Made by a program: the position numbers and the translations under genes. Of a DNA stretch of 64,000 nucleotides, positions 9,670 through 62,700 are shown piece after piece; position 1 is the stretch's first letter; every line of letters starts with the position of its first letter. Under the pieces are notes generated by a model that searched no databases, was not told the DNA's origin, and saw only the letters and a program-made list of their open reading frames with translations. The stretch lies in the NCBI RefSeq assembly GCF_010093535.1, contig NW_022985164.1, forward strand, positions 1,279,485 to 1,343,484. The letters are read 5' to 3'. The stretch comes from Lindgomyces ingoldianus. Its lineage: Eukaryota > Ascomycota > Dothideomycetes > Pleosporales > Lindgomycetaceae.

Positions 9670-11034
9670 TTAATCGCCTACAAATTTTAGCCCCTCAAAG
9701 TTCTGGAACCTGTCTGAATGAACCACTGGGCCCTTCTTCTCTGCAATTGGTGACCGTTGAGGAGCTGAAATGACACTCAAAGGCCTACCAGACCATCCTC
9801 CATCCCTAATCGACAAGGTGAACTGGATATTGGAGTAGTGGGCTAATAAGTCATTGACCTCGAAAAGAATCCCGTGTGCCACCCTGAAACGCTCTAGGTG
9901 GTCCTCAATGCTCATTGGGGGTACGCAGAGGATTGTCCTGTATACAGGCATCAGAGCAGCAGCGAAGCTATTCGGTACCGGTGGCAAAGCCACAGGCGGT
10001 GAGGATAGCTGCACCACAACGTTGCTGGGACACTTTGAGCAGCGTCAAGACCCATTGGATCAGCTGCCAAACCCGCCTGTGGAAACACAGGCGAAGATGG
10101 GGTTCGATATTTGATAACAGGAGTAGCGGGGTTTCCGGAAGATCGGACAAAGGATTCGGGCCCGGTAGCTTGAGAGTGGGATTGAGCTGGAGCTTCTTCA
10201 TCGAAATTATAGGGAGTCAATCTACCTGCGTTTCGGTTGTGATTGAATCTCTAGCTCGAATTAGACATTGGAAAGGCAGGGTGCGACACATAATCGCATG
10301 CAGAGCCCACTTTAGTGGGGTCGTTCTCGCTATGCTGGTTAAGGATGAGTGAAAGGTGAAGGGAAGAACAGTGAGGATTGGGACTCACTGCGTTGCCCTT
10401 CTTTGACCGAGACCCAGCGCCGTAGTTAGTGTTTGCCGTCGACAACTCCCTGAGCTCACCCCAGTGCTGTCGCGGCTTCTTTGGCGGAGGCGGCGCTGTC
10501 TACTCTGATTGCCTCGCTTTTGCTTCACCAGCCGCCTCACCGCTGAAAGTAGCGTTGTTTCCCACATGATTAGTCTGATTCTTGCCTTTCCTCTTCGAAT
10601 TCCTATATGGTTGTATCCTATCTGAGACGGACGGGAAACCCGACATATTGTCATTCTCTGAAGCCGCCACGTGAGGTTTATTTCCCAGTTCCTCACCCGA
10701 AGCCTTGCCTTATACTCAAACCAGGTCAGGATGGTGTCTCTTCCTCGAAGAGGCATAAAGAGACCCTGCGTACCTTCGACAGTTGTAGTATATTGGAGGA
10801 GAGCAGCATGATCAAGTGCTAGCGGAGCCATCTAGGCAGGGTAGAGCTTCGGCTTCGTCAAAGGCGGCTCCGAGATGGCGTGCAAGCCCCTGACTGGTCG
10901 TGGAGAAGACGACGTCACCTCACCTTCTTTCTCAGAGGACGATTGTGGGTAATGGCCCCTATGTCCTGAAATTGAAGGCACAGCTGGTGCTACTTTCATT
11001 GGAGGCGCCGCATTGCTCCCCATAGCTCAGTGAG

Positions 11035-11603
11035 CAGCGTTTCCAACAGGAAGTAGTACGATTGATACTTTTGCTCTACCTACGATCACGTGAGGCAAAC
11101 AAACGTAACTACATTTTTAACTGTTACGATTCGATTGATGAGGCTTAAAGGTGAGCAGTATACGATTGAGGTAGACTATTTTGAGATGGCACTTGATTTC
11201 CTATGTATACCCCCCACGAGCTGCGACTGCGAGAGCGACTGCGAGAGAGCCTTCAGCGGGGGGAAAAGGACAGTTACTTGTGACCGTAATCATCTCTCAG
11301 GCTCTACAATTGAAGCTTTGCAACTCCAGAAGAACTGGCTACGTTATAAGGTTGTTTTCAGTGAATTGAATAACCTCGCGTGCCATATCAAGAGTAAGGG
11401 GGACCCTGCTACTCTAAAAGCTTTAACAGTTACGTCGTAACTTTTAGTGAAAAGTTGAGAAGTACAAGCAGCTTCAATCGAACCGTAACTCAATCGTATT
11501 GACCCCTGCTGTCAGGTGAAGCAAACAAAAGTATATGATAAGTGAGACGTAACTTGTCTAGAAAGCCTGAGTCGAATCGTACTACTTCCTGGTAGAAACG
11601 CTG
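11035..11603 (+). mobile_element. Non-autonomous hAT-superfamily DNA transposon, 569 bp
   Basis: The ends are inverted repeats of 29 bp that match at 27 positions and begin CAGCGTTTC. The copies flanking the element, TCAGTGAG at 11027-11034 and again at 11604-11611, form a perfect 8-bp target duplication, the hAT hallmark. Inside, copies of TACGATTGA and its complement recur near both ends and resemble subterminal transposase-binding repeats. The only coding remnant is the C-terminal dimerisation region of a hAT transposase, so this is a deletion derivative that would need a transposase in trans. The intact duplication suggests a fairly recent insertion. Confidence 0.95.
11090..11440 (+). pseudogene. 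hAT transposase C-terminal dimerisation domain remnant
   Basis: The open frame reads ALDFLCIPPTSCDCESDCER, then AFSGGKR, then HLSGSTIEALQLQKNWL. This matches the hAT dimerisation pattern (L-x-IP-x-TS, SER-x-FS, R-x-x-L-x-x-x-x-x-EAL). A 12-bp tandem duplication (GCGACTGCGAGA at 11223-11234 and 11235-11246) inserts four residues into the normally tight TS...ERxFS segment. There is no ATG start and no catalytic DDE part. Confidence 0.88.
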
Positions 11604-12021
11604 TCAGTGAGTCCCAATCTCAGTCGGAGCTCGATCAACGATAGTAACTAGTTTATTGCTGGAGTTTGAGTGGTTGCCAGCAGATCCAACAGGTATATCT
11701 TTCATAACAACTTCCCTGCCAGATACAATAGATAGCAAGGTAGTAGAGACAGTGGGGGTGTTGGCCAAGGTGCTCGGTAGAGCAGTTGGTTGGTGAATTG
11801 TGCCTTGTCCTGCCTCATTGCCCTTGATGTTTACCATGAGCTCGCCGAAGGCTAGAATGGGGTATTAGTGTGTGTTCTAGTTCAATTGATAGTGCGATGA
11901 AACCTTTAGGTAGCACACTAAAGGTCGGGCTGGGTTTTGGAGAGGAGCTATTCTCACTTCCTCCACTGGTAATGCTGGTTTCAGACGTCGTCAGGGTGTG
12001 AAGCTGGTCGCTGTTAGCCAT

Positions 12022-12988
12022 GCTTGCTCTGACCGCAGATGCGCTGAGCAAGTGGCGTTGTAGTGTTGGTGTTGAGATAAAGGAAGTTCAAAGGGGAAGT
12101 GAAGGCATGTATTAACTAGCGTGGTGGGTGACTGGAAACAGCAGTAACGGCGGTCGCGCGAGGAGCACCTTTAGAACCGAGCCAGTCGCACCAGACTTCA
12201 CCCAGAGTTAAAAAAAAAAAGGACCAAAATTGAGAGAAGCAGGCCGCAACGACGCAGCCCGTGGAAATAAAAACTAGTATTGAACTACCCCACCAAAGTG
12301 TGAGCAGTCTGCAACTGACCATGTTCACCAGAACAACCTGACATAGTTCGCTGCACATAAGCGCCATGACGCTCATGAAAACCCCACGCTTTCCCTAATA
12401 CTGAAAGAAGAGTGATCCCTACGTCGATACATGTTAAGGAAACAGGTGGTATAAATATGAATGAACGAACACCTCCTTGTTGCCCTCGCCTGGGCTTCTC
12501 CATCCAGGGAGCGGTGTGAGCCAACTAGTAGTATCAAAAGGGCCGTAGTAGCGACAGATAGGAAGCCTTCGAGGAAACAGATGCGAGGGATATAACACGG
12601 AAGAAGTGATTACAACCCCAACGTACAGAAGAAGGAGCAATGGTGTAGAAGTGAAGAATTAGAAAAAAAAAATGAGATGGCACTGGGGAATAACCGTCTT
12701 ACGCCTTAGAAACTCCAGTATATCCAGGCGGACCCCATGATTAGAACCAAAACGCCACCTGAACGCCGTAGCAAAGAACCCGTTCTCGATGACCGCGAAG
12801 GTATTGCACTAGGAATCGAACGCTAAACCCCAGAGCATCGTGATGAGAAAGCGGGAAGGTTTTCTAAAATCGCAGGCAAGACTCCCCATTCAAACAAGAA
12901 GCGAACTGTAGGCGGTATGATCGTTGAGTGTCGCGGCTGTTATGAGGATATCTGGTCCAAGTTAGGCACGAAGAATGGCAAGCCAATC
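12022..12988. other. Intergenic, no gene seen
   Basis: The region includes homopolymer A runs near 12210 and 12663. An isolated GGAATCGAAC at 12808 resembles a tRNA T-arm on the minus strand, but no cloverleaf can be drawn around it. Confidence 0.45.
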
Positions 12989-14832
12989 TCATTCTCCTAC
13001 CCTTCTCCTTCTGCCACGACTTCCGCCCTCAGGGCGTTGCGCAAGAACTTCGCGCAATTGCGGGTCATCCTTGTCCTTGTCTACGTGGTGTACGCGTACG
13101 TGTCTGTCACGTCAACCGTCATCAGCACTGAGGTCACATAATTTGTAAACAAGATCTTGTTGGAGCATCGAACATACCTTTGTAGATTGTCGGGTCGTGG
13201 GTATTTGTGTTCGCGGTCGGGGCAAAAAGGACAGACGTAGCCGGGCGAGGCGTGGACAAGACCGTGCCGAATCATCTCATTCTTCCGCTTAAAGCCTTTT
13301 CCACCTTCGCCTCGTGAACAGCCAGCGACTGGACAGTAATGCGGTCGACTTTGGGAATGGACGTTTGCATGTGAGCTAGAACGGACAAGATTAGCATTTG
13401 TAGCAGTTTTGCGAGGGGCTCAACAGTGCACACTGCAAGGGCATAGGAAAGTGACTTACTTCAAGAGATACTGGGTTTGGAACGGAAGTGCGGTGCAGTT
13501 TGGATAGTCACATTTGAATCCCCCCGATCCATGCGGTGGAACATGTTGAATGGGTGGCCCATTTAGTGGTGGTAACGTTCTCGACGCTATTGTACCATCT
13601 ATGCTCATACGGTGCGTCTGGTTTTCAATTGGCGTAGGTTGCGATCTGGGGCTAAGCCCATCGGAACTTTGATAGCTATCATTGGTTGTCGATGCGGATG
13701 GCAAAGTGCTACAGTAAGGAGGGCCATTCTCTGACGCCTGCGAAGGCCTGCGAGTGTTGCTGAAGAGTGTGAGATGTTGACCAGATCTTAGAAACGGGTC
13801 TCGGGTTGCAATTTCACTATTTGCGCTAATGGGTGATGTTGCGCTCAACGAGGGAAATGCACTTCCCGGCGAACGTGCCGAACTGATGGAGAGTTGTCGC
13901 GATATTTGCGTCGGTGATTGGCCTGTGGATGAGATGGATTGTCGGTGAGCGAATCCATTTGCTCTGGACTCGTCTGCCAACTCGGATATGTGCTTGAAGG
14001 GGGGTAATGATTGCTTTTGATTGGGTGATGCTCCCGGCCCGTCCCGTGAGGGCGAGTGAGGATTCTGTAATGCCGGCAATTTTTGGCTGGGTGACCCTCT
14101 TGACGGTGGTATGGTGAGTTCGCGAAGATTGGGCGACGTCGCTAATGATTCCTCGTGGGGGTAGCCATTCGCATACGATCCCGCCCGGTTCCCAGTCAGG
14201 TTTGGCGACGTGGCCTCGAGTTTGGAAGAGCTATTGATAGGTGATTTTGAATCCACTCCATTTGGACCCAACCACCCCCCATTCGTCAATGACCCTGCAA
14301 TCGTCTTCGGGGCGGAAGCATCTGCACTGAAGGGGCCGCGTGATTCACTGTCGACTTCTACCACAGAGTCGCGGTGGGGAAAAGGCGGGGGAAGCTTGGT
14401 TGTCGTGTTCAGCGCCTTCTGCGCGGTGGCCTGGAGGTTGATAGGAGGCGCATTTGACTGTGTCTGTCGAGTTTGTACGGTTTCTGAAGATACTGCCTCT
14501 GCAGGCTGGGGTGACTCTTCCATTTCCTCGTCATCCGCCTCCGATCCCGAATCCGAATTCAATGCTCGTTCGCCAACTTGTCGTGCAATATCGGGTCGGT
14601 TCGGTTCCATCTCCCGAATGAGTACGACGTCACCTTGACTGGGCCGAGTCTTGCGCCGATTAGGTTTCTTTCGTCTTCGAGAGGAAGGAGGACTGACGTT
14701 TTGAGTCGAAATTGATATTTGCTGCGTCACAAAGGGTGGAGGGGACGGAGACGGCGTCGCTTTCGGTCTGACTGGAGTGAGGCCCGGAGATCGTTGGAGA
14801 GCGTCGTCTGAATCGTAGTTTTGAGTATTCAT
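12989..14832 (-). CDS. C2H2 zinc finger protein, fungal-specific, probable transcription regulator
   Basis: Exons 14832-13460, 13375-13178 and 13103-12989 give 561 residues. The first 430 residues are Ser/Pro-rich and disordered, with an RRRKKPNRRK basic patch near residue 52. A finger begins with FKCDYPNC and its His residues are supplied by exon 2. A second reads HYCPVAGC...KRKNEMIRHGLVH. A third reads YVCPFCPD...PDNLQRHVRVHH and spans the exon 2/3 junction. The C-terminus after the fingers (KDKDDPQLREVLAQRPEGG) is a conserved tail of this filamentous-fungal family. Both introns are GT-AG and fall inside the finger region. A nuclear DNA-binding role is inferred from the fingers; targets are unknown. 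Confidence 0.9.
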
Positions 14833-16626
14833 CCGTCACGATCGGGAGGCTAGTGAGTGTAGCCTCGTTGAAAGACAGCAGAAGGGCAGGAGTTGTGGGA
14901 AGATGACAACTATCTACCCCGCACGATGCCTTAAGATAAGTGAAATAGTGAGCGCAAAGCCAAAGAGTGAAGGGGTGAATATCACTGAAAGATCTGGGGC
15001 TGCTAGATATCTGAGGATAGTCAGTATAGCTAGATCTGGAAGCATAGATTGGCAAATTTGAGACGAGGCGAGCGATATTGAAGCAAAGAGACAAATGAGA
15101 AGCGGACAGAATTCAGACTGCAGATTTGCGCATCTTGAGATGAAAGTTATTGAAACATTTGAAGAAAACAGTAACACCGATCAAAGCACACAGCGCGTGA
15201 CAGGGAGCGATTCCAGTGCAAGCCCAGACTAACGGGCCAGGCAGGCGGCGGGCATCAACAGAAAATTACATGTGTTTGATTGCTTGGGGAGCTATCTTGA
15301 AAGTTGAAGTTGAAAGGGAGAGCAGAAACATGACGGGAGGCGGCATGGAGGGGGGGCGCGGACGCGGCTCTGTGAGCTGGTAACGTACCCGAGGGTGCAA
15401 CGACTGACTTTCAGCCTCAAGGCGGTGGAGAAAGAGTGCCGATCTTGAGCTTGTGTTGACCAAGGCGCTGGTGAGATGGACGTCTGATCACTGGCATGGG
15501 GAAGACGATCTCAGGGGCCGTCTGGCCATGAAGCTTCTGGACAATGCGCTCGAGGCCGACGACGCCCTCGCCTTCGCGTGCTGACGAGGGCTGTTGACAC
15601 TGACTGGTGGGGGTCTGGTTTGGCTGCCACCTGCGACGCCCGCAGCTATCGCGGGCGCAGAAAGAGGCTGTGCGGTCGACACGAGAGCGGCGTCGTGGAA
15701 CACGCGCGCAGTTGTGAGAGGTGGGAGGTTGGCGGAGGAAGCAGGAGCATCAGCGAGATGTCGCCGTCTCATGGATGTGGGAGCACATTCACAGAGCGAG
15801 AGCTGGAGGCGCAGCCCAGCAAGTAGGCTTACATGAGAGCTTCGAGAGCTCGTAGTTCGCGGCTCCAGTCAGCCTCAAATTCATCGGTCCTTGACGTTCC
15901 CCGCTCTGGCTGGGAGCTTGGACACACACTCAGAAAGAGGGAGGCTACTAAGAGGCGAGTGGGCAAGTACCGCGCGAGGAGCAGGCCGTTTTGACCCCGC
16001 AGCGTGCATTGCACATTCGCCAGGGTCCGTCGTCCTGCACCCAAACCGGTCGTCGAGATATATTAAATGCCCCGTCTGCATTCCAGCTACCGGTTTGCTA
16101 TGTACCCGCCCTGTCCGGAAAGTCCCCTTCATCGCTCAACGGCTTTCTTCCTGCCTCGATGCAAAATGCTCGCTCGTATGAAACTGCTAGACAGCCATGC
16201 AATGCAACCATTCACCCAGCCATCCATCGCCTGCTGCCTCTGCTGCAAAGTGTTGCTCCTCGTCTTCGGTGCGTCCTCGATGCGTCCTCTCCGCCTATCG
16301 TACATCTAGCATGTCAGTCTGGTCGTCTATGTCTCTTCGTCTAGGAAGTGGCCAGCGCAGTGGCGGCCCCGTCTATGTCATGTGCATGCAAGCCCGCAGC
16401 GCTCAAAGGAGAATCGTTCCCTCGCCGAACCCCCACCATGTGCGGCTGAGAGAAGGGCGAGTGAACTCCCTCAAAGGCGGTCGGACGCCAAAAGAAAATA
16501 ATTGGATGATAAACCAGAACCGCGCCAAATGCGAAATCCCATACGAGAATCCATCCAATCCCCATTTACCCACGCTGCACCTCTCCTCTCAGGAATCCCT
16601 CCAGGCTCGACGTGTGCAGGAGGACC
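14833..16626. other. Intergenic 1.8 kb, GC-rich, no gene accepted
   Basis: Several overlapping frames exist on both strands between 15.5 and 16.6 kb. They reflect high GC and lack domains or splice logic. The part next to 14833 is CT-rich on the coding strand of the C2H2 gene and is a likely long 5'UTR/promoter. Confidence 0.45.
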
Positions 16627-18914
16627 TCATGCCTGCGGTTTTCCGCCCAAGCCTGCAAGGCCCGGCCACGTCTTGCCCTGCGGCAATTTCGGGCGTCCAA
16701 AGTTCTCGTCTAGGTCCAAGATAATCTTGAGTGCGTTTCGGCTGCGTAGGTACGGCAGCGGTGCTTTAGCTTCTGCAAGTCCGACTCCGGGTTCGACGTG
16801 ACTGCGAGGACCCTCCTCGTCAGCGTGGCCCGGCATAGGGAGGGCCCGCTGCAGCACTTCGTAACCGGCCAGCGTAAAACCAAACTGGGGAGAGGATCGC
16901 AAGATACGGGCTGGCCCGCCCTTGAAAAACGCCTTGAATCCTTCCTGTTGGTAGATTGTTTTCGCCGCATGTCGGAGGCCAGTGTAAGTGGCCTCACCCT
17001 TCCGCGCTTCGACCTGCAATCTGGTCTTGATGACATCGCACGGCGTCGTGAAGTAGGCCGCCGGCATGCCAGCGATGGCGCCAGCCGTGAGCATCTGCAG
17101 CACACCAAGCGACTTAGTCGGACTCTCACCAAAGAAGTCCCTCTTCAAGTGGCTGTAGGTGGGGAAGTAGATGGCCGAGAAAGGGACTAGACGCATTTGT
17201 GAGTTGCATCATCTGGGATTATCTTGAAAAAAAAAACATTTAAGCTCACCATCCCGCAAGAGACATGCGCTAGCGCCCTTGTACAAGCCGACGAGACCCA
17301 GGTTCCTGATGATCCACATCGCAGAGCGTTTAGGAGTGCCATCGACCGTCTTTGCGACTTCACCCTGGACCTGCAATCTAATCTTGACAATCTCGAGTGG
17401 GTTCGTAAAGACCTGCAGCAGTTCGAGGTTACCGTGTGTCCGGCCGAGGCTTTCGGCAAAGCACGAGGATAATACCTACCACTTGACAGCCGCCAGCCGT
17501 GCCACCTGCAATAAGTTCCATCGGCCACCAAATCTTGCCTGTCTGCTTATCTGTGAATTTCCCTCTGACCAGATCGTTCACTGTCAGCTTGATGGCTTTC
17601 TCCGGCGCAACTCCGACGAGCTGTGGGAGTACCCCAGAGTACAGTCCCCTGAACCCTTCGTTCTTGATGACCTTCCGCGCGCAATCGAGCGAGTTCTTGT
17701 ACAGCATCTCTCCGACGCGTGAGCTCCTCTGGTTCTGCATTCGTGTCTTCACTAAATCAATGGGGTACACCATAAAGGCACCAAACGCGCCCGCCAAACT
17801 TCCCAATGCGAAGTGATGAACGCCCTCCAGGACGTCATAGAGCAATGACTTTGTCGTCGAGAAAGCCTTTTGGCCAGCATCCGCAATCGCGCTGGAACCC
17901 AAGGAATACGCCGTGTGCCATGACGGATCCAGCACTCGAGCGAAATCCTTTAGGCCCAACCGTCCTGACGGCTCATCGAGACCGGCAAAGTGAAAGAGGA
18001 TATCGGCCTCCATGGGGGTATACAGGTTGAATCGGCTGATCCTAGCAGCCTCATTCAGGAAATCAGTACGAGTAATCTTGCCATCTGAACTCTTGTTGGC
18101 CGCATTTCGGATGATTAGCTCTACCATATCCATCTGCTGGATCATATTCTGGAAAGCCCGTACGTTGGCGTAGGAAATCTTGCTGCCGGCGGAAATGTTG
18201 CAGAGAGTGTGTAGGTTCTCGAGGAGGTGGTCGGACAACTTGTGGCTTGCGGTCTCTAGGATGATGCGCTGAAATTCCTCAGGCTCAATGTATCCGTCCT
18301 TGTTCTTGTCGAAATGCAGGAAGGCCTGCCGGACGCGCTCGCCCTGCAATCCGCGAAGCATCTGGGAAAATTGTGGGTAGGTCATGGTGTGACGCTTGTC
18401 CTTGGATCCGATGTATAGCGTTGCCCACTCTGAATTCCAGTCGAACGGCAGGCTGTCCTCGCCCTTGTGCGCCTTCCATACATTGTAGAACTCGCTGAAG
18501 TCAATGAGGCCGTCACCGTCCCAATCGAAGAGGCGGTAGGTGACTTCGTACTCGGCGTCGGGCTTCGCAAGCAGGTTCTGGAAGTTGCTCCAGTCACGCA
18601 GGGTGACGCGGCCCTTCTTCTCGCGATCTGCGACGACGAAGAGGATGCCATACTGGAAGCGCTTGATTTTGTGCTGAAGGGACGGCGTCGTTAGCTCTAC
18701 CAAGAATCGACACGTTTCAGGAGCGGGTACAGACATAATCTTCGCTCTCGGGCGCGACAGCATCAATGAACTCGTTCTCGCTGAGATAGTATTCGCCACT
18801 GGCTTCGTCCTTGAGGGCATGCTTCATAAAGGCGGCCCGCGTCAGTTGCGACATCTGCGGCTCCTCGGAGGTGCCCAGCAACACCTCGCCCACCTGGTCC
18901 TTGACGGTGGACAT
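16627..18914 (-). CDS. agc1: Calcium-regulated mitochondrial aspartate/glutamate carrier
   Basis: Four exons (18914-18735, 18673-17480, 17412-17250, 17186-16627) give 698 residues. The N-terminal half holds EF-hands; canonical loops are DWDGDGLIDFSE at about 110-121 and DKNKDGYIEPEE at about 182-193. The C-terminal half is an SLC25 carrier with the three signatures PIDLVKTRMQ, PLEIVKIRLQ and PCDVIKTRLQ. The protein exchanges mitochondrial aspartate for cytosolic glutamate plus a proton in the inner membrane, feeding the malate-aspartate shuttle. Length and order match metazoan citrin/aralar and fungal AGC1. An upstream in-frame ATG at 18962 would add 16 residues; I prefer 18914 because family members begin near MSTVKD. 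Confidence 0.95.
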
Positions 18915-21444: not shown

Positions 21445-21748
21445 AGAGCAACGATTGACAGGAGAGTCTCGCTGGACAAGCGGGGTGGAAGAGAGCGGCG
21501 GACGTCAAGTGTTGAAGAAAGTCCAGCTGTTTGTTGGGCTCGGGCAATCTTCGTGGTCCGAGCGTTGTCGGTCCGGGAGCCGCGCTAGAATCTGAGCAAA
21601 AGGTAGATTCTCCCCAGCATAATGCGACAAATCGTTGCAATTGATCTGCTTCCCGCTCGTTAAGCTCTCATACGCGGACATTTCACCTTCCAAAGGTACT
21701 GAGAGCCTGAACAGCCGTGAGGAAGGCGTGGCTAATAGCCGTACCAGA
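21445..21748. promoter_or_regulatory. Divergent promoter of PDX1 and the predicted mitochondrial membrane protein
   Basis: A 304-bp gap separates the two starts, so the two genes probably share regulatory sequence. No specific factor site was recognised. Confidence 0.55.
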
Positions 21749-38413: not shown

Positions 38414-38872
38414 AGACATCAGAATCTGGAGAAGCAAAAGCGTGTAACGGGGGTTATTTACTCCCATTCCTACGTGGATCATTATATGGGCGCTAGAGGC
38501 TTCCTTTCTTCTGGAAAGGAGAAAGTTCCCACGATCCCCATCATCGCTCCTGATGGATTCACCAAAGTCACTATGAACGAGAACGTCACCCCAGGCCCGG
38601 CTCTGCGCCAAAGAGCGAATTTCAGGTATGGAAAGGCGCTGGCAAAAGGTCCGGAAGGCCAAATTGGAATTGGACTTGGCATGGGAACAAGTGTTAGGAA
38701 AGGATCATTGACTCCTATAAATAAGTTGGTTAAGAGGACCGAGGAGGCACATGTTGCTGGTGGGGTTAAGATTGCGTTTCAGGTGGTACCTGAGACTGAA
38801 GCGCCTGCGCAAAAGATTTTTTGGTTTCTGGACTTTAGGGCTTTGTGTGTTCCCGAGACGGCTGAGAGTTGT
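38414..38872 (+). pseudogene. Fragment of an MBL-fold linear alkylsulfatase (SDS hydrolase type)
   Basis: The open frame between TAG at 38411-38413 and a possible GT donor at 38871 reads RVTGVIYSHSYVDHYMGARGF, then IIAPDGFTKVTMNENV, EGQIGIGLGMGTS, and AFQVVPETEAPAQ...ALCVPETAESC. These are successive conserved blocks of alkylsulfatases of the SdsA1 type. Only about 150 of an expected 600 or more residues are present. The zinc motif HxHxDH is altered: the second His is Tyr (CAC to TAC). The truncation and the lost metal ligand argue for a dead relic. A downstream exon at about 38957 does not resume the family sequence. Confidence 0.75.
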
Positions 38873-39318
38873 ATGCACAGTATCTTATACCTTCATTTTC
38901 TGACGCTGTCTCTTAAAGAAAACGCGTAGCTTGCGCCATTACTGACACATCTACAGGTGGCGCTTCGAGCTGTGTTAACGAATTTGGAGTTGTTGCGGGT
39001 GTTGAGAGGGGAGGAAGGAGTGTCCTCGCTACTGCCCTTCAACCTTCAATCGAGTGTGCAGCTCACTACCATATCGTTTTCGGCCAATTCGAATCCACAT
39101 TGTAGATCAGACGTATTAGCTTTAGCAGATGTCTGGTGAAGGGCGATGGTGGTTGCTCTATCGGTAAGCGACTGCGGACATCTGCGAGTAAATGAGACAG
39201 ATCTCGGTGATGGACTGGGTACGAGCAATCATATTTCTACTCATACGGTTCTAGGATTACGGGGGACAAACCCAAGGTCGTTTAAAGCCTTGAAATCTCA
39301 ATTGACCGTCTCAGTTCT
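38873..39318. other. Intergenic, no gene seen
   Basis: Short unremarkable frames only, including a plus-strand stretch after a possible CTACAG acceptor at 38956 that matches nothing known to me. Confidence 0.4.
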
Positions 39319-47100: not shown

Positions 47101-48870
47101 CTAGCCCTCTTCCCTTTCCTCCGTCTCTAATTCCTTCTCTAATTCCTTAACCTTCCGCTCCAACCACTTAACCACATGTTCACTCTTCCTCTTCTCCTGC
47201 TCCGGCTCCTGCTCTGGCTCCAGCTCCAGCTCCAAATAATCTTCGCCTCCATCCTCATCTTCCCCGCAATCTCGACCAGCTTGTGCATTAACATCGTCCG
47301 CATAGTCTGCAGTTGCGTGATGGAATGCGCTTGTATAGTCGAGCCATCCTGTTTAACCGCATTCTCGCCATCCTTTCGCACAGCAGCTGCTAACAGTGAC
47401 TTGAGATCGGCAATCGGTGAGTTTTCGTCCCGCGTCCGTTAGAGTCGTGTGCGTTAGAGCTAGATGAGCCAACGCGAAAACACGATGAGATTGAGTGTCA
47501 GTCGTCCAGTGTAGGTATTGGCGGTGATGGCGGTACGCATTTCTTTCAAAAGGCTGGAAAGTTAGTCTTGTGGCAATATCGAGGACAAGGCGGGAGTGGT
47601 GGACGATAGGGGGGACGAAATCCAGTCTTGCCCCTATTCGGAACCGAACCGAGGGCGAGAGTATATTAAGATGAATAGACATGCGGTGAGTGAAGACGCT
47701 CGCGAAGAGACTGTTTTGGTGCGGTGGAAAGTGCTAGTTATGAGCAGAGAGAGGTTGGGCAAGGCGAGTTAGGGGTTTTCAACAAGATTCAAGGGTAATC
47801 TGGGGTGTTCTGAAATGGGAGCGTGGAGAAACATGGGAGATTATGGGTTGTGGATAGTGTACTGCTCGTTACTTGAAGACACTTTCAACCGTGTGCCATA
47901 TCCTGCAAATGTTTGCTAATCTGAATTGTTGATGATCTTTATATCATGATCATATAACACGTCACCTTAAATTAATGTAGAACTAGTTACAGTTATATAT
48001 CCCAGTAGTCCTTAGCATTGTTGTCAAAAATAATCTCTACTAACACCACCTTCTAAGCCCTAATGTATGAACCTGGGCTCTCTAGCACTATAGATGTATG
48101 CCTCTTCGCTTTCGGCAGAAATGGCATCTCGATGGAGCTTCACACAACGCTGGAAGCAGAACTTGTAGCCAAGAACTTCTTCCAAACCTCGCCCAATTAA
48201 CCCAGAGACATTTCACATCACTCAGCACTTTCATCTCCAACCGCCGGCATCGTAGGTTAGGCGCCCTCTCCCTCCTGGTTTCCTCTCTCTTTCTTGCTAG
48301 CCTCCTTCTCAACTTCATGCTCCCTTGAGGGGGGGGGGAACAGTGTCCTCGTCACGTTTCCGCTAGCGCAAGGGAGAGCCAGTGGTGCAATTGTAGTCTG
48401 CGGTTGGTGGAGCGGGAGGTAGACGTTTAGGCCTGGAAACAGTAACAACAGAGTCAGCAGCACTAGGAGATATGGGGCTACGCGCAGCAGCGCCATCGAA
48501 AACATCCATGTATTCTGTATCAGGTATGCCCGTAGCCTTCCGCGTCTTATCCTTATTCCCCCGGCCGCCCAACTCCTTCTACAAGACAGATCCCCTCATC
48601 GCATATTCCACCTTAATCTTCTTTTTCACTTGCTCACTTTTAGCATTGCACTTCTGCTTCATCTACAGCGCATGTCGCGCACACTGCCACTAAAACATCT
48701 TCTGAAGCTGAGTCCCATACTCATCCTTCATTTCCTCAAGTTCTAGATGGCGGGCATACTCTTGAACCGGCGGTGTTGTTAGAGGTGTTTTCACAAACTA
48801 CTGAACGTAATCCAAAGTTACTGTCACACACGCAATGGCGTTCGTAAGGCGGCTTTGCGGCGCTCAGGAA
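47101..48870 (-). pseudogene. Decayed coiled-coil gene with five in-frame TAG codons
   Basis: From about 48870 to 48310 one minus-strand frame is protein-like over about 180 codons (PPVQEYARHLELEEMKDEYG, QWQ..., KSEQVKKKIKVEYAM, ATGIPDTEYMDVFDG). It is broken by TAG at 48800-48798, 48692-48690, 48665-48663, 48581-48579 and 48365-48363. Each fits a former CAG. The frame is then lost at a run of ten C. A second stretch at 47440-47100 reads SPIADLKSLLAAAVRKDGEN, then LQTMRTMLMHKLVEIAGK, shifts frame by one base and continues as an acidic coiled coil (EHVVKWLERKVKELEKELE). I infer that both belong to one dead gene; the family is unknown to me. Confidence 0.55.
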
Positions 48871-51800: not shown

Positions 51801-51884
51801 CGTGCGAGAAAAAAGTCACCCCGACGGCGCCAGCGTTCACCACCTGTAGCCCCCGGAAGCCGCAGCCTGCGCACCGCTTTGTCA
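48871..51884. other. Intergenic 3 kb, possible relics, no gene accepted
   Basis: A minus-strand frame (49083-48736) overlaps the pseudogene in another register and may hold part of its 5' end. A plus-strand frame near 50590-50835 (SAIYPPSFKHSYAYPKVAED) is protein-like but has no domain or start. From about 51430 to 51884 the sequence is CT/GC-rich and is the likely promoter and 5'UTR of the FHA gene. Confidence 0.4.
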
Positions 51885-55389: not shown

Positions 55390-56850
55390 TTACTTCAAGC
55401 TGATAGCCACAGTAACCGAGCTCAAGAACCTGATGCGGGTCTCGGGGACCTCGGCCTCGTCGTCAAATTTCCTTTTCTTCTCCTGCTTGCCCTTGATTTT
55501 ATGCTGCTTGTGGAGCATAAGTTTTTTTTCATCCGCGAACATAGTGTCCGCATTAGCCTCGTCATCGGACATCTCCTCATCTTCGTCCTCGTCATCATCC
55601 TCATCCTGCTCCTCTTGCTTGGCATTCTTCAAGGCAATATCATCAATGACCTTCACAGTCCCCGCCTCAACCTGGACTTTGCAATCCACCTGTTTCTGGA
55701 AGAACAGACCGAGATTCAAGGCTACTGGAATGGCTTTTCCTGTCCCTTTAATCAAGACTGGCTCAGCTTCCTTGGTTGTAGGCCGGGGGCTGCTAGCGTC
55801 GGCGATTGCTTGCTCGACGGCTGGGGCGGTGAGAGTGCCGGTTGCGATGAGAGATTGGGTCTGGCGTTTAGAGATTTCCCCGAGGAGCTTGCGAACGAGT
55901 TTTATTGTGGGGACAAATTTGGTGGCTGCCTTTACGTAGATGATTTTGGGGTCTGAGGAGGAGAAGGGGGTTGGGATTGCGGGACGGAGGATGGGTCGTT
56001 TGGAGACTATGGCATCTGGAGAAGTAAGCGGTGGGAGGGACAGATGTGAGAGAAGAGAAGAGAAGAGAAGAGAAGAGAAGAAAAGGGAAGAGAAGAGAAG
56101 AGAAGAGAAGAAAAGGGAAGAGGAAGGGGGCTTACTGATAGGCAGTCTGGGGAGCTTCTGCTTCTTTGACTTGGGCTGGCCCTTCTGCGACTTTTGCTCT
56201 TGTCGCTCTTTCTGGTCTTGGTCTTTGGCGAGGTCGTCGGAGCCCTCCTCATTCCCTACCTTCTGCTTTTTGCGACTGGACCCGTTGTCCTTCTTGGGCT
56301 GCTCTGATGCTGTAGCCTTGTCCTGTCTCTGTCCTTGCTTTCTTCTCTTGGGTGTTGTGGCAGGAGTGTCCTTTGAAACTTCACCATCAGTTTGCGTTTG
56401 TCCAACCTTGACAGTCGTCAGGTCGATGTCCATAGCATCGCTCGTCTCTTTAGCCTCAGTCGCAGGCGGGGGCTTCTCGTTCCCATTCCTCGCCCTCTTC
56501 TTGCCCCTCTTCTTGGGCTGGGCCTTTTCTTTGGCAAGAGACTCTGTCACAGTGCCATCCTTTGCCATCTCTGCAGCTGTTTCTTCTGTGGTTGTGTCAG
56601 GATTTTCCTTCCACTTTTTCGCTACAACTTCCTTTTGGATACCGAAGTATTTCCGCATATGGGATTTACCATTCGAGTGCGTTGAGGATTCGGCGAGTGA
56701 CTCGGCAGAAGCTTGAGCCATCTCTGGCGCATTCGATGACGGAGAGGTCTCGGCGGAGGGCATCTGCGGCACGGTCGATGGTGGGGTGAAGTTGAAGGAG
56801 AATTTGGAAGGCTGGAGTTTATATGCTCCTAGTCCTACCGCGGACAGCAT
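55390..56850 (-). CDS. pop7: RNase P/MRP subunit POP7 (Rpp20-like, Alba fold)
   Basis: Exons 56850-56136 and 56015-55390 give 446 residues. The N-terminal half is Lys-rich and disordered. The Alba-like core is in exon 2: KRPILRPAIPTPF, KIIYVKAATKFVPTIKLVRKLL, PVLIKGTGKAIPVALNLGLFF and VKVIDDI. The C-terminus has an acidic run followed by KFDDEAEVPETRIR. POP7 pairs with POP6 on RNase P and MRP RNAs. The intron (56135-56016, 120 nt) is divisible by three and stop-free because it is a pyrimidine repeat; splicing joins LPI to NAIVSKRP. An internal ATG at 56763 (MPSAETSP) may be the true start. The N-terminal half is longer than in most relatives. Confidence 0.85.
   Translation of the reverse strand: MLSAVGLGAYKLQPSKFSFNFTPPSTVPQMPSAETSPSSNAPEMAQASAESLAESSTHSNGKSHMRKYFGIQKEVVAKKWKENPDTTTEETAAEMAKDGTVTESLAKEKAQPKKRGKKRARNGNEKPPPATEAKETSDAMDIDLTTVKVGQTQTDGEVSKDTPATTPKRRKQGQRQDKATASEQPKKDNGSSRKKQKVGNEEGSDDLAKDQDQKERQEQKSQKGQPKSKKQKLPRLPISKPPSSSLFFSSLLFSSLFFSSLLFSSLLSHLSLPPLTSPDAIVSKRPILRPAIPTPFSSSDPKIIYVKAATKFVPTIKLVRKLLGEISKRQTQSLIATGTLTAPAVEQAIADASSPRPTTKEAEPVLIKGTGKAIPVALNLGLFFQKQVDCKVQVEAGTVKVIDDIALKNAKQEEQDEDDDEDEDEEMSDDEANADTMFADEKKLMLHKQHKIKGKQEKKRKFDDEAEVPETRIRFLSSVTVAISLK
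56048..56124. repeat. AGAAG pentanucleotide microsatellite inside the POP7 intron
   Basis: Runs of AGAAG alternate with AAAAGGGAAG, giving a higher-order period of about 30 bp. On the transcribed strand it makes an uninterrupted pyrimidine tract upstream of the CTCCAG acceptor. Confidence 0.9.
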
Positions 56851-57067
56851 CGTGACTGTCAATGGTGTTCACGGTGGAAGGTGCGGACCAGAGTAGCGGA
56901 AGGTGAGGACGGAATTTCAATATTTCGTGGCTTTCAGGCTTCCTATCGATAGCCCGCTTGAACCAATTAGCGATCCGTGTTCGGCTAGGCGATAGGTAGC
57001 TCACATTCTATTCCCTGTCCCCAGCATCTGATGGTCATGAATAGTTGATACTTTCTTAGTGGGCCCA
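56851..57067. promoter_or_regulatory. Divergent promoter of POP7 and LIP2
   Basis: Only 217 bp separate the two start codons (304 bp if POP7 starts at 56763), so regulatory sequence is probably shared. No specific site was identified. Confidence 0.5.
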
Positions 57068-57787
57068 ATGCGGCTCAGACATATCCATTTCCCAAATGTT
57101 ATCCCATATTCCGCTGCGTCAGCGCTCCAAGAAGCCTACGTATCCCGTTTCCTGGCCTCAAAGCGACAATTAAGCCCTCAATCTCCCTCTCCACTAGCAC
57201 CCACGCCGCATATCATCACCGCCGAATTCCGTCCCGTATACACATGTGGCCGGCGCGAAATTGGTACCGTATCTCCCCAGCAGCAAGAATACCTCCGTGC
57301 CAATGGCCGCGCTGAATTCGTCGAAGCCATGAGAGGCGGCCAGACGACCTTTCATGGTCCTGGCCAACTCGTCGCTTATCCCATCATCGATTTACGCGCG
57401 CATAAATTGACGCCGCGGGATTATGTCTGCGTGCTGGAGAAGAGCTTGATTGCTACGTGTGCGAGATTTGGTATTAGGACTATGACGACAGAGAATACGG
57501 GGGTGTGGACAACGGAAGACGATAAGATTGCAGCGATTGGAGTGCATATGAGAAGGCATGTCACTAGTCATGGGGTTGGTCTGAATGTGAATACGGATTT
57601 GTGGTGGTTTGAGAGGATTGTGGCATGTGGATTGGAGGGGAGGCGGACGACAAGTTTTGAAAGGGAGGGGAAAATAGGGAAGAGTGTGCGGGAGGTGGGG
57701 ATAGCGTTCGTCGAAGAGTTTGGGGAGAAACTTGGTGCTGAGGGGGTGGATGTTGAAGAGGTTCCGCCACTGAATATGGAAAATTGA
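57068..57787 (+). CDS. lip2: Octanoyl-[acyl carrier protein] transferase (LipB family)
   Basis: A single exon encodes 239 residues from the ATG at 57068. The family signature RGGQTTFHGPGQLVAYPI lies at 89-106. The conserved Lys153 is in DDKIAAIGVH and the catalytic Cys187 in IVACGLEG, separated by SHGVGLNVNTDLWWF. The enzyme moves octanoate from mitochondrial acyl carrier protein to lipoyl-domain lysines, the step before sulfur insertion; PDX1 in this window carries such a lysine. The N-terminus (MRLRHIHFPNVIPYSAAS) is compatible with weak mitochondrial targeting. The C-terminal 40 residues are acidic and less conserved. Confidence 0.94.
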   Translation: MRLRHIHFPNVIPYSAASALQEAYVSRFLASKRQLSPQSPSPLAPTPHIITAEFRPVYTCGRREIGTVSPQQQEYLRANGRAEFVEAMRGGQTTFHGPGQLVAYPIIDLRAHKLTPRDYVCVLEKSLIATCARFGIRTMTTENTGVWTTEDDKIAAIGVHMRRHVTSHGVGLNVNTDLWWFERIVACGLEGRRTTSFEREGKIGKSVREVGIAFVEEFGEKLGAEGVDVEEVPPLNMEN

Positions 57788-57788
57788 C

Positions 57789-58068
57789 TCAGGACTGAGT
57801 GATAAGCGGTGGAGTGTTTTGATGTGCATACATCCAGCGAGGCATATTCCATCCCCAGTTCTCTACAACAGCTCCAGTTTGTAAAGAAGTTTAGCCGTTA
57901 TCTCAGCTACATCCCATCTCGAATGGGGCATAGACTGAGCAATGAATGGTGGAGTGCTTTGGTGTATATGCGTTGAGGGAGGCAGACTCTGCCCCGACCC
58001 TTCACAGCATCTCCGGTTCTTCAAGCAAGTTCAGCAGTTATCACGACAGCAGCTCACCTCAGCTGATG
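57789..58068. repeat. Imperfect direct duplication, 140-bp period
   Basis: Two adjacent copies align with constant 140-bp offset: for example GACTGAG...GGTGGAGTG(T/C)TTTG at 57795 and 57934, and later CAGC(T/A)(C/T)C pieces followed by AGTT(T/C)AGC(C/A)GTTATC. Identity is roughly 70 percent by eye. The first copy begins at the LIP2 stop codon. Confidence 0.75.
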
Positions 58069-59399
58069 AACATCCTTGATTTCGAGGAGCATTGACATTA
58101 ACTTCCCCAGTGAGAAGGGGCTGAACTCCCCCCAATACACCGCTGTACCCGGGAAAAGGCCCAAAGTGGACCTATGTTTTCATTGACCCATACCATGGTG
58201 ATACTTGGCGACCGACAATCCCCCCGATGCACATCATCCAATGATCTTCCTTATCAGCAGCAAGATTCTGTGCGGACTCCCCAGGCCCCAGAAGTAAGCA
58301 TACACAGCTTCAGAAACAAGTAGTTTAAAGACGATGGTTGCCACTTCCCAGCCCCAACCTAGTAACCGAAGCCATCAGTGGGTTGTCATGGCATATGCCA
58401 AAACAGGGAGTGTTCTCGAAGCCGCTATAACAGCACTCGAGCTAACTCCCCACCAGCACTTCTTCGTGTAAACCACTGCTAACCATCCATCTTCCCTGTT
58501 CATCACCACTTCTAGCGTCCTGCGCTACAAAAAGGCAATGTTTGCTGGCTTTAGGTGCGCTAATGCAAGAGGAAATTATGTCGAGTTTCTATAGTGAATT
58601 ACTATTTCAATGCGGATGCAGATGCCTAGCCTCATATAGCCCACTAAGATAGCGAACACTTTGCAGGGAATCTTGATGATGAAATGGTGCAGAACCACAA
58701 GGATCTGGATTATCATTGGTAAGCTTGGCTATCTCGCTGATGCTTCATCCTTTTCTGACTGGTTGCATTAGTCGCATTCACGTTTGCCGTTGAAGTCTGA
58801 GAGATTTGTCGGAACTGGAGGTGCGAATTGTGCCTCTGACGGCGCAGGCCCGTTTGGGACCTAGTTGCTACTTTACAATCTTCTGACATCTCGAACCAGT
58901 ATGTTTATACCCCAAGGCACTTGTTCCTGCAATCGCTATCCACTCATGTCTACTGCCCACCCTCCATGGGCGATATCTACGCCGCCACAGGTGCAAATAT
59001 CCTGATTTTTGGTCTCCTAACAGCTGCTAGTCCGCCGTAGCTCTGCAGCGTTGCAGCGCTAAATTATAATTGCTATTACATTGCTACGTAGGCACTGCAG
59101 AGCTGCTAGGTACTTCTCTATCTATATATAGTTTGACAGTTACTATCTCTACAACTACCCCCCTGCACTCTTTCTTTTAGCTTTTATTAGTTTTGTATTA
59201 TGCGCTAGTATCTCCTCCTACTTTTTTTTACAACATTTTTAGCCCTGTAGCTGTTGTTATAACCAGTTAAAGTTGTCACCTTTTATCTGTGCAGCTACTT
59301 TTTACCTGTGCAGAACTATTAGAGTAACCTTGTTCTAAAAATCTTTAATGCCATTTCTACCTACTTTTCTTCTTTTCTTCTTCTTCTCTCTGTACTAGC
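58069..59399. other. Intergenic, AT-rich toward the right
   Basis: No gene was seen. An inverted pair AGCTCTGCAG (59039-59048) and CTGCAGAGCT (59095-59104) can form a stem. AT content rises from about 59040, marking entry into the repeat-rich block. Confidence 0.5.
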
Positions 59400-59489
59400 A
59401 AATTGCTGCAAGCTACAGTAAACTACAACAAATTGTAGCCAACTGCAATAAACTGCAGTGGATTACAACAACGTACAGAAAACTGTAGT
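59400..59489. repeat. 10-bp tandem array, nine units (copy A)
   Basis: Nine units with consensus near AAACTACAGC follow each other with strict 10-bp phase, from AAATTGCTGC to AAACTGTAGT, then TACACACC. Unit-specific variants match those of copy B 504 bp to the right. Confidence 0.9.
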
Positions 59490-59694
59490 ACACACCGCCT
59501 TATTACAAGTTTCTGTATGAACCGCCTAGGGGCACATTATAAGCCATGCACGTCCTGTGCTTCTGTACGTATTCCTTGTTACGCACTGTGTTTGCTCACT
59601 GAATGACACTGCCCGTACGAGTCGCCGCTGTCCTCGCCGTTCATCTGCTTCAGCCCCTCCATCGCCTGCCCTAGGGACTAGAAAATGGGCTTGT

Positions 59695-59742
59695 TGTAAG
59701 GCCAGGATGGCGCTTACGTGTAAGGCCGAGATGGTGCTTACG
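59695..59742. repeat. 24-bp tandem duplication
   Basis: Two copies of TGTAAGGCC(AG/GA)GATGG(C/T)GCTTACG lie head to tail with three differences. They sit between the two 10-bp arrays. Confidence 0.9.
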
Positions 59743-59903
59743 TGCGACGGGTATATATACTATTCTGCACCCGAAAATCAACGTTGGTTGATTATTCGTA
59801 CCTTTTGGTTGTATTGGCGGAGTGGTGCGGAGCCCCGTCCTTACACTTGTGCCTAGGGGTATTAGCTAGATATTAGCTGGCAGCGTTAGGAAAGGCATAA
59901 AGT

Positions 59904-59993
59904 AAATTGCAGCAAATTGCAGCAAACTACAGCAACTTACAGCAAATTGTAGCAAACTGCAGTATATTAGAGCAACGTGCAGCAAACTACAGT
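59904..59993. repeat. 10-bp tandem array, nine units (copy B)
   Basis: Nine units run from AAATTGCAGC to AAACTACAGT, then ACACATT. The eighth unit starts AACGT in both arrays and the seventh is the most divergent in both, so the whole array was copied, not just the unit. It lies about 390 bp beyond the 3' end of the recombinase gene. Confidence 0.9.
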
Positions 59994-60381
59994 ACACATT
60001 AGTTGTGTTGTAAGTGGCGCTAACTATCTGTCACGGTTATGTTACAGCTATCCAACCCCTGAGTACCCTAGGCTTGGCACGGGGTATATAGGCTCCTCGG
60101 CCTCCGTACCTCTGCCTCCGACCCTAAGGTTTACTCTCGTTACCCCCCCTATCCTGCATTCCCTCTCTGTGACCTGTGTTTCCTGCTCGATACCTCTCAC
60201 ACTATCTTGTTAACAACGCTACCCCTAAGCTAGCTAGGTGTTAGGTATAAAACCTAGTTTAATAGTAAGGACACAGTTTCTTTACTAAATTTAACATTAT
60301 TTCTACTTTCCCCTCGCTGGCCCTTAGGGCTAGCGTAACACTAAACACTAAGACAAAACTATATAACTATATATACTAATA

Positions 60382-62700
60382 TTAATTCCCCCCTTTCCGA
60401 GCAGCTCTAAGCTGCTTGCAGAGCTGGTCTAGCGAGCACCTCTGCTGCTGCTGCTGCTGCCGCTGGCTCACCTGCCACATGGCCGCCTCCTCGCTGGTCC
60501 TCCGTGCCTGGGCTATGCGCCTGACCTCCTTGATGACCCCAAGCCGTAGAGAGTACCACTGTAGCTCGCTCTGACGACCTGCCCTCCATCTGTTCCCCCA
60601 GCGTCTGTCTAGCTCAGCGATTGAAGGTTGGCCCTGCAGGCCTACTGTCCATTCGCGCCAGAGGTCCTCTACAGTCCTTACAGCACGGCACATGCGATGC
60701 TTTGGTGCAGGTGCAGGCGCAGGCTCAGGCTCAGGCTCAAGCGCTGCTGGCAGAGGCGATGGGCTAGGCGAGCACACAGACGGTGTAGGCGCGATGCTGG
60801 TCTGGGCAGAGGTATATCTGCTCGAAGCTACGTCTGTTGGCGGCGACGGCGGCAGCGACGACGGCAGGGCTGATAGCAGCGCTGCTGCTGCTGGCCTGAG
60901 CCCAGGAGGCGGTACTGGCAGACTGCCTGGCTGCTGGGAAGTCTCTAGGCGGAACACGAGGCTGCCAGAGGTGAGCATCTGCAGGTGCTGAGACTGCGAG
61001 CTCTGCAGCTCAAGGAGGCGATCGATAGACCCCTTGAGCTCCTTCAACTGCTGCTCGTTCCGCTCGTTCCGGGCATCTAGCGCTTGTAGCTGGTCGGCGA
61101 GCAGGGGTATCGCCTGGTACAGGACTGACAGCCGACTAGGAGCCGCCTCTGCGTCGAGGGACGCGTCGATTTCCTGAGCAAAGACTGTGTACGCCTTGTG
61201 CTGGAACACGGGGTGGTTCCACACAGGGTGGCTAGGGAATCGCCGACGCAGCGCGACTGAATCCTAGAGGATTACTTCTCTGAGGTAGAGCAGCAGGTTT
61301 GTGAGGCCTCCTGCGGCTAGGTCGTTGATCTGGCCAGCGTGTGGGCCAAAGCGGTCCTTCCACGCGTCCAGCTCCGGCCAGATGAGAGATAGGAGCTCGT
61401 CTGGGGGCGCGATGGCGGCGCGCGGGATCTCGAAGCAGCCCATCTGGGGCGGGTGGCCAGCCATAGTCCTCATGAACTTCCGCGGCAGCGAGTTGAGGTA
61501 GCAGCCGACCATCTGCTCCTGGTTCCACCTGCCTGCGCGCCAAATCTGGTCCTCACTGATCCCCTTGAGCTCTGCTAGCTTGGCAGCCCCATTGCTTGGG
61601 AGGTGGGTCTTCTTCTGTGACGAGATCCCAGCGTAGCTATACGCCTTCGCGACCCAGTCGCGCTGGGTGTTGTAGGAGAAGGCTGCCGTACGATCGCCCG
61701 TGCTGGCCTTGATCAGCCGTATGCGGTACCAGGCCGATCGCTGGCTGAAGTCAGGGAACGGTTCGTCCCCCAGGTCCCAGCGATAGAGCAGGTAGAAGGC
61801 TAGGCTGCTAAGCATGCAGAGAAGCGGCTTCCGATGCCGCAGCGCGCCAATCGTCTCTAGCCGGCCGTGCTGGTTCTGCTTGCTTGCGCGCGTAGTGAAT
61901 ATGAGCGGCATGCAGCGCGTAGGGCCCTCGCCCTTAAACTCAAAGGTAAACAGGTCAGATATCTCCGCAGAGCGGCGGTCGCCTCCGCGCGTGAGCATGT
62001 AGTGGCCGAGCATGAGACCGACCAGGGTACGGAAGTGGCACTCTGCTGCTGCTGAGGATGAGGCCGCATCGGCGCCATGTATCCACAGCTCGCTGCAGAG
62101 CCGCTCGAACTCGTCCTCAGAATAGCCGTCAAGCAGCATGTCTCTCCCCTTGTCGGCGTACTGCTCTCGATCCCGCTGGGCATCCCTGCGCTGCAGAGAC
62201 TTGAGGTACTCCCTCGCGCTGTCCTCCCGCGGTGACGGGTGGCTGTTCATGCCCAGCGCCTTCTGCTCTCGCCAGAGGTCGGTGATGGCCGTGATGTAGG
62301 CGCGAACTGAGCGCCAGGCAAGATGCGTCTAGTCTTGGGGGACGTCGCTCCCTACCTTGCGAGACCTAGTCCTCAACGGCCTGTTTGCAACCTCCTCAAC
62401 TAGGAAGAGCAGCAGCTTGTCCTCTGTAACTGTTCTGCCGTCGTGGTACTGCTTCCTCTCACAGAACGCCTAGATACGCGTGGTTAGCACGTGAGGCACA
62501 TACACGTTCTAGCTCTAGTAGGCTGTATACTACCTTAAATTCCTCCTGCTTTAGACTATAGACCTAGTGCGTACTCTCTGGCCGCTGCTCACAGATTGTA
62601 GCTAGGATACGGTGCGCATTAGCGCGTAGCTCAGCGTTGTTCGCGATATTAACGTCTGTGCTGCGGACCCATGCTTGCCTTCTCTGACCCTAATGAGGAG
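60382..62700 (-). pseudogene. Crypton-type tyrosine recombinase gene with GCR1_C domain, three in-frame TAG codons
   Basis: The minus-strand frame reads ...ESTH-TAG-VYSLKQEEFK, then a 64-nt GT-AG intron with a GCTAAC branch site (62533-62470), then AFCERKQYHDGRTVTEDKLL and on to SVRAYITAITDLW. TAG codons lie at 62566-62564, 62331-62329 and 61266-61264; each fits CAG and the frame continues past each. The middle (LWREQKALGMNSHPSPRED...GDRRSAEISDLF...GRWNQEQMVGCYL) matches the Ndc10-like/Crypton recombinase family, with a candidate catalytic Tyr in GCYL; the usual HxxR reads HLPS. The C-terminus (TVEDLWREWTVGLQGQPSI...NRWRAG) is a GCR1_C DNA-binding domain. The N-terminal limit is uncertain; a TAG near 62690 may be an intron acceptor. 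Otherwise the gene is well preserved and GC-rich in an AT-rich setting. Confidence 0.82.

Follow-up and report, generated by a model that had tools for sequence, protein, structure and literature searches.

Repeat-induced point mutation with a YCR target in transposons of Lindgomyces ingoldianus, and the decayed genes of a 64-kb window

The window analysed here, 64,000 nucleotides of contig NW_022985164.1 (positions 1,279,485 to 1,343,484) of the dothideomycete Lindgomyces ingoldianus, a saprobe of freshwater, carries a transposon of the Crypton type, a short hAT-derived element and decayed single-copy coding stretches at 9.7-12 kb (locus 1), 48.3-48.8 kb (locus 2) and 38.4 kb. An original prediction, made from this window, had ascribed the damage in the Crypton gene and the three decayed stretches to C-to-T change at CpA, the preferred context of repeat-induced point mutation (RIP), visible as CAG to TAG in the Crypton and loci 1 and 2 and as CAC to TAC at 38.47 kb. 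The window was compared with the whole genome (68.4 Mb in 99 contigs), and the reading that we consider very probable is that RIP with the target YCR (pyrimidine-C-purine) acts on the transposons of this fungus, that the dead single-copy genes of the window most likely result from ordinary decay plus a hAT insertion, and that the window Crypton was lightly RIPped at most. The Crypton gene and its surroundings are organised as follows.

62534..62672, minus strand: Crypton exon 1 with ATG at 62672; sibling copies L005 and L014 read MGL...QEEFK, then GT
62564..62566, minus strand: genuine exon 1 TAG; CAG in siblings L005 and L014
62470..62533, minus strand: Crypton intron 1, GTAGTA...TCTAG, containing TAG at 62532, 62517 and 62511, with the acceptor TAG at 62472
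60382..62469, minus strand: Crypton exon 2, NDC10_II and GCR1_C domains (Pfam E 2.3e-79 and 1.3e-19), with TAG at 62331 and 61266
62329..62331, minus strand: genuine exon 2 TAG; of 15 copies, L014 has CAG, E7 and L022 also have TAG, L019 has TAA, one has AAA and 10 have AAG
61264..61266, minus strand: genuine exon 2 TAG; among 16 copies, CAG in the little-changed L005, L010, L014 and L018, TAG in 11 and TAA in one
59000..60200, no strand assigned: Crypton 3' flank, in composition the most RIP-like part of the window (D 1.49, an index defined below)

The element encodes an NDC10_II core with a GCR1_C domain and has dispersed copies, as in Cryptons of the NDC10/GCR1 type; it is a putative Crypton, the name being taken over from the original prediction. 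The frame previously followed on the minus strand from 62.7 to 60.4 kb contains seven TAG and one TAA before its end at 60384. It is wrong upstream of 62469, because siblings L005 and L014 show an exon 1, a GT-AG intron and a long second exon. Two of its eight stops are genuine, while those at 62604 and 62553 lie in exon 1 but outside its frame, those at 62532, 62517 and 62511 are intronic, and that at 62472 is the 3' splice site. Of 15 aligned copies, all have TAG at 62604, 14 have it at 62532 (the remaining one has TAA) and 12 have it at 62472. In the window copy itself the reading frame shifts after the ATG of exon 1. The three genuine TAGs (62566, 62331 and 61266) are each preceded by C. 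The count of eleven TAG and one TGA over the three loci thus becomes ten TAG and one TGA in the corrected frames: the dominance of TAG stands, while most of the Crypton stops were spurious.

The Crypton search returned at least 97 matches, with 40 of 1,082 candidates scored, so that copy numbers are lower bounds. Eighteen copies were built from 22 loci; matches without cut-out sequence were left out, and L020, L026 and L028 (second views of the same places) and L030-L033 (a different short repeat) were dropped. Differences between these copies are overwhelmingly of one kind. Over 3,267 ungapped bp, copy L024 differs from L005 at 697 sites, comprising 696 C-to-T or G-to-A changes, one reverse transition and no transversion. 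At L024 positions 1127-5030 hold two Crypton copies head to tail, one base apart, the first being the most heavily changed copy compared. Other heavily changed copies, also compared with L005, show 5 reverse transitions and 6 transversions (L016), 4 and 6 (L019), and 17 and 14 (L011). Since so few other differences accompany the heavy C-to-T load, this load does not track age. Young pairs of DDE_1 elements (a family with 150 matches from 735 candidates) likewise show no transversions, with 7 reverse transitions from L068 to L074 and 26 from L070 to L071; older pairs and subfamilies also bear ordinary changes. C-to-T transitions of this kind between repeat copies are expected of RIP, which acts strongly on the transposons of L. 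ingoldianus.

The target was resolved by sorting cytosines into the classes YCR, RCR, YCY and RCY (Y, pyrimidine; R, purine) and scoring C-to-T changes on either strand; the class of a site is fixed under such changes, since a pyrimidine neighbour remains a pyrimidine and a purine neighbour a purine. Eight lightly changed pairs from four transposon groups, namely the Crypton, the hAT and two mutually non-aligning DDE_1 groups, were combined in a light pool. In this pool 496 of 1366 YCR cytosines are mutated (about 36%) vs 115 of 6673 other cytosines, the latter comprising RCR (73/2370), YCY (38/1999) and RCY (4/2304); with only one correct neighbour, 1 to 4% are changed. All four YCR triplets are hit (TCA 203/443, CCA 145/422, TCG 99/303, CCG 49/198). 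Sorted by dinucleotide, the counts are 394/2,173 for CpA, 175/1563 for CpG, 19/1643 for CpC and 23/2660 for CpT, and the 5' base matters as much as the 3' base: CpA is mutated at 348 of 865 sites after a pyrimidine and at 46 of 1,308 after a purine, and CpG after a pyrimidine (148/501) reaches about three quarters of the rate of CpA after a pyrimidine. Taking the window copy as the ancestral state had made CpA and CpG seem equal and, through differences between subfamilies, had inflated CpC and CpT, an effect lessened with L005 as reference.

The same order appears within single copies. In L024 the changed fraction is.94 for TCA,.89 for TCG,.88 for CCA and.74 for CCG, falls to between.53 (GCA) and.32 (CCT) where one neighbour fits, and is.01 for GCC and.00 for GCT, ACT and ACC, so that RCY is nearly unmutated even in a copy with 696 changes. 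The tiers are sharper in the lightly changed L009 (.30 to.53,.03 to.07, and.00). The DDE_1 pairs give, for YCR, RCR, YCY and RCY, 66/114, 1/166, 3/192 and 0/221 (L068 to L074) and 27/125, 5/210, 0/179 and 0/204 (L070 to L071). As a control, the older divergence of the Crypton L014 yields.127,.112,.110 and.098 for the four classes, without clear class bias, its direction being uncertain. L014 belongs to a different subfamily and keeps a 692-codon open exon 2 frame; its divergence has no clear YCR bias. The RIP context is thus the trinucleotide YCR, instead of plain CpA.

A third transposon family is represented in the window by the insertion within locus 1.

11035..11603, no strand assigned: hAT-derived element of 569 bp, flanked by an 8-bp target duplication, TCAGTGAG, at 11027-11034 and 11604-11611

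Part of the hAT dimerisation domain is preserved in it, and the family identity rests on a Dimer_Tnp_hAT domain match at C3:1290664-1290825. The little-changed window copy served as reference for 29 hAT copies, in which YCR is mutated at 665 of 1112 sites, RCR at 203 of 1110, YCY at 123 of 1258 and RCY at 26 of 1529, with at most one RCY change per copy. Two copies on other contigs are 99.8% and 99.1% identical to the window element, and most of the other 27 bear many YCR changes.

The stop codons of the transposons follow this spectrum. The exon 2 frame of the 18 Cryptons contains 379 TAG, 102 TAA and a single TGA, and the codons found in the window copy at the TAGs are CAG (158), TGG (132), CGG (39), TAG (25) and others. 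In the 150 DDE_1 matches, nine of which are stop-free, there are 999 TAG, 195 TAA and 5 TGA. The TAG excess in the transposon families is thus overwhelming. Three light Crypton copies show its dependence on the preceding base, CAG having become a stop in 37 of 63 cases after a pyrimidine and in 1 of 75 after a purine; the corresponding figure for TGG is 14 of 45. Judging from the mutation rates, TAG would be common and TGA rare because on the other strand TGG offers CCA, whereas TGA offers TCA, the hottest target. Within the window, frames of at least 180 aa broken at least twice by one kind of stop alone number 26 for TAG, 81 for TGA and 12 for TAA; TAG-only broken frames are therefore not rare, and picking frames alone gives no more-than-chance TAG signal.

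Base composition was summarised by the index D = log(YTR/YCR) minus log(RTY/RCY), calculated for the window and the fetched loci. Its median over 64 one-kb windows is -0.09. It amounts to 1.07 to 3.55 in seven Crypton copies (L005 1.07, L024 3.55), 0.87 in the window copy, 0.84 to 2.02 in five DDE_1 loci and 0.12 to 0.46 in three hAT loci that are mostly flank. Plain intergenic stretches give 0.13 and 0.18, and the loci of the two methyltransferase genes described below give -0.33 (DIM-2) and -0.15 (RID-like). Among the loci measured, high D is thus confined to repeats, as expected of RIP; since L014 scores 0.79, the raised value is partly a property of the Crypton element. Standard CpA-based indices do detect heavily hit copies (composite RIP index, CRI, up to 2.07). 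Applied to the window in 1-kb windows, as the original prediction had proposed in finer steps, they are clearly high at 59-61 kb only and merely slightly positive at 11-12 and 62-63 kb.

The window Crypton was affected lightly at most, as had been anticipated. Since its split from the L005 line 13 of 157 YCR sites have changed vs 23 of 751 other cytosines, a weak excess (p 0.0055), and since the split from its nearest sibling 9 of 210 vs 23 of 1007, which is not significant (p 0.10). In its 3' region, at about 60029-60207, lies a repeat of about 175 bp that is 95 to 100% identical at at least 18 other places. The 569-bp hAT is mutated; the shorter repeat, nearly identical from place to place, may escape RIP through shortness. 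The adjoining positions 59397-60008 consist of decayed short tandem repeats with a GCAGCAAATT-like unit, and translations adjoining copy L010 suggest a similar unit there.

The remaining decayed stretches are as follows.

9672..12021, minus strand: locus 1, single-copy and probably a decayed gene, with TAG at 10834, 10502 and 10253, TGA at 11029 and the hAT element interrupting it
48320..48779, minus strand: locus 2, single-copy and probably decayed coding sequence, with TAG at 48692, 48665, 48581 and 48365
38414..38929, plus strand: alkylsulfatase relic with TAC (Tyr) at 38471, in place of a His of the HxHxDH motif of SdsA-type enzymes

The relic at 38 kb aligns with alkylsulfatases (best E 3.9e-28), and this alignment bears out the earlier observation of a Tyr in place of a His that we take to be a zinc binder. 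Codon usage partially supports the frames of loci 1 and 2 as former coding sequence. Two pieces of locus 1 score +0.095 and +0.061, another +0.028 and the last -0.060, while locus 2 scores +0.074, its upstream part -0.077 and the 38 kb relic -0.031; the best-of-six maximum over 45 intergenic stretches is 0.041. On leaving out one true gene from the training set, that gene scored -0.046, and three of the training frames lack a Pfam match. The hAT insert aside, the genome search found no other DNA copy of locus 1, and the sole homologue found, P0001 (L. ingoldianus BDR25DRAFT_349558), is the NCBI gene model of locus 1 itself. This model omits the TAGs and provides no independent evidence, because its pieces are identical to the window apart from splice edges. 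Neither a protein homologue nor a DNA copy of locus 2 was found in searches of proteins and genome, and the genome search revealed no repeat copy of the 38 kb relic.

Read locus by locus, the base before each TAG allows these single-copy dead genes to be set apart from the transposons. Four of the seven TAGs of loci 1 and 2 follow a pyrimidine and three a purine, a distribution with p 0.0006 if all arose from CAG by RIP, and with p 0.08 if TGG is allowed as a source, the latter being a weak test with a mixing rate estimated from the light Crypton copies. The TGA at 11029 sits in the hAT target duplication. The index D is 0.07 in the main part of locus 1, 0.49 in its 5' part (few counts), 0.27 in locus 2 and -0.04 in the 38 kb relic; because these values are near intergenic ones, the three places show no clear RIP. 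RIP is therefore unlikely there, and ordinary decay together with the hAT insertion is the most likely origin of these dead genes. The proposal of a lesion common to all loci is accordingly not supported at locus 1, locus 2 or the 38 kb relic, which are single copy in the searches. The attribution of all lesions to CpA holds insofar as CpA is the dinucleotide mutated most in the light pool; the target is YCR, and three TAGs follow a purine. The suggested base-by-base comparison with paralogs revealed the C-to-T excess among Crypton copies and yielded no intact copies for loci 1 and 2.

A DIM-2 and a RID-like gene are present, the original prediction having required a RID methyltransferase. Searching the genome for cytosine methyltransferases produced three matches, which fall at two loci. 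To one methyltransferase of the genome a protein assigned to L. ingoldianus is 100% identical over 86% of its length. The first, on C1, encodes a DIM-2 with BAH and methylase domains, matching PDB 9baq (E 1.1e-127) and also 9bap, some of its relatives being named Dim-2. In the second gene (C36; motifs IV and VI at about 1916 and 2096 of L066) the methylase domain alone scored above the cut-off in the three pieces scanned. The accessible text of PMC6709928 describes an EQT or EET triad in motif VI as the signature of RID/Masc1 proteins and a conserved PCQ in motif IV. The L. ingoldianus protein has EQT in motif VI (LEQTYGL), and its motif IV (SPPCCYW) reads PCC, keeping the catalytic Cys and replacing Gln by Cys. 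The gene is called RID-like here because of PCC in place of PCQ.

In the mechanism that we propose, RIP mutates C to T at YCR in transposon copies, and TAG stops accumulate, mostly at CAG and TGG codons, with TGA hardly occurring; TGG would turn into TAG via CCA on the other strand and TGA would be lost via TCA. The RID-like EQT enzyme would perform RIP, possibly with DIM-2, before meiosis. That PCC changes target specificity is speculation from the sequence motif; a RIP of the Pleosporales lineage carried out by a RID-like enzyme of so changed specificity, reading both neighbours, with CpA and CpG as one class and RCY exempt, has in our view slightly less than an even chance of being right.

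Several observations weigh against a simple YCR-directed RIP or restrict it. Of 36 tests for strand clustering of neighbouring hits, which is typical for RIP, four lay above the null with p ≤0.03. PCC at motif IV could mean altered or impaired catalysis, and a sexual, premeiotic timing is not visible in sequence. YCR is not the whole rule, as within it the +2 base has an effect (A.55, C.21), and in the heaviest copy RCR and YCY reach about.4, being slow rather than forbidden targets. In the older DDE_1 pair L069 to L070 the four classes keep their order less cleanly (.27,.12,.08 and.07, with 104 transversions). The light pairs were picked after inspection of the data and the copies share history, so the pooled p-value is nominal and hits are partly non-independent; at up to 10 sites the hAT reference carries T and copy L038 carries C. 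Since the nearest-sibling split the window Crypton shows no YCR peak (YCR 9/210 vs RCR 16/337), and no intact relative was found by which changes in loci 1 and 2 could be polarised.

Four other explanations were considered. An old episode, in which loci 1 and 2 were RIPped while a second copy existed that was later lost, is unlikely. It agrees with the partial codon-usage support for these loci as genes, with their stops (seven TAG and one TGA, four of the TAGs after a pyrimidine) and with D in the 5' part of locus 1 and in locus 2, but the main part of locus 1 has a low D, locus 2 is barely above the intergenic values, and three of the TAGs follow a purine. Classical CpA-directed RIP of all the dead genes in the window is a little less likely again, and we give it a low probability: CpA is indeed the dinucleotide most often mutated, both methyltransferase genes are present and the Tyr codon at 38471 follows a C, so that its ancestral site would be CCA, but CpA after a purine is largely spared, CpG after a pyrimidine is not, and loci 1 (apart from its hAT insert) and 2 and the 38 kb relic have neither another copy found nor a composition that departs much from intergenic DNA.

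Slow deamination of methylated cytosines in silenced repeats, in place of RIP, would explain why CpG sites are among the targets in a fungus with DIM-2; we consider it very unlikely, given that the 696 changes of L024 were accompanied by one reverse transition and no transversion, making the process fast relative to ordinary mutation, and that CpA is mutated more often than CpG. That TAG is decoded as an amino acid and the genes are alive would account for TAG being almost the sole stop in the frames of loci 1 and 2, yet in the Cryptons TAG replaces codons for two amino acids, CAG and TGG, in copies with many other C-to-T changes, and the NCBI model of locus 1 skips the TAGs; this explanation is extremely improbable.

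YCR-directed RIP in L. ingoldianus resembles several known systems in part. RIP in Neurospora crassa, by RID with DIM-2 as a second route, shares C-to-T mutation in repeats, DIM-2 and a RID-class EQT motif VI according to the accessible text of PMC6709928. It differs in its described CpA/TpG preference (accessible text of PMC12543289, whose kingdom-wide survey reports CpA preference as shared), whereas in L. ingoldianus the 5' pyrimidine is as strong as the 3' purine and CpG counts. The portions of PMC4352252 available describe a trinucleotide rule with a 5' pyrimidine, TpCpG, for RIP-like mutation in Microbotryum violaceum, which, however, belongs to the basidiomycetes, yielded no RID/Masc1 gene in that paper and has TpCpG as the only target. 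In the same portions, CpA and CpG are both mutated in transposons of Aspergillus niger, A. fumigatus and Tuber melanosporum, attributed to one CpA-and-CpG enzyme in the Aspergilli and perhaps two mechanisms in Tuber; no rule for the 5' base was found there. Amber and ochre triplets are typical of RIPped regions in RIP-capable fungi, as the accessible text on Fusarium (PMC6963459) states, in which neither the near-absence of TGA nor its explanation by a TCA target was found. Thus, an excess of TAG and TAA in RIPped DNA (PMC6963459) and CpG beside CpA in some ascomycetes (PMC4352252) are already in print, as far as these partial texts go, while the YCR rule appears new: it was not found in the RIP-context literature searched, which included few subscription papers and did not extend to Clutterbuck's 2011 survey, the sources being partial texts.

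RIP is usually measured by CpA-based indices, which lack an internal control and ignore the 5' base, on which most hits depend. With a YCR rule and almost exempt RCY sites, RIP becomes separable from base composition within one sequence, and each premature stop can be judged by its neighbouring base. If true, the rule would make RCY a built-in control and offer a clean RIP index for any genome. It would also connect the choice of target with a RID-like enzyme whose active-site motif is unusual, and would explain why the dead transposon genes of this fungus are rich in TAG and nearly free of TGA.

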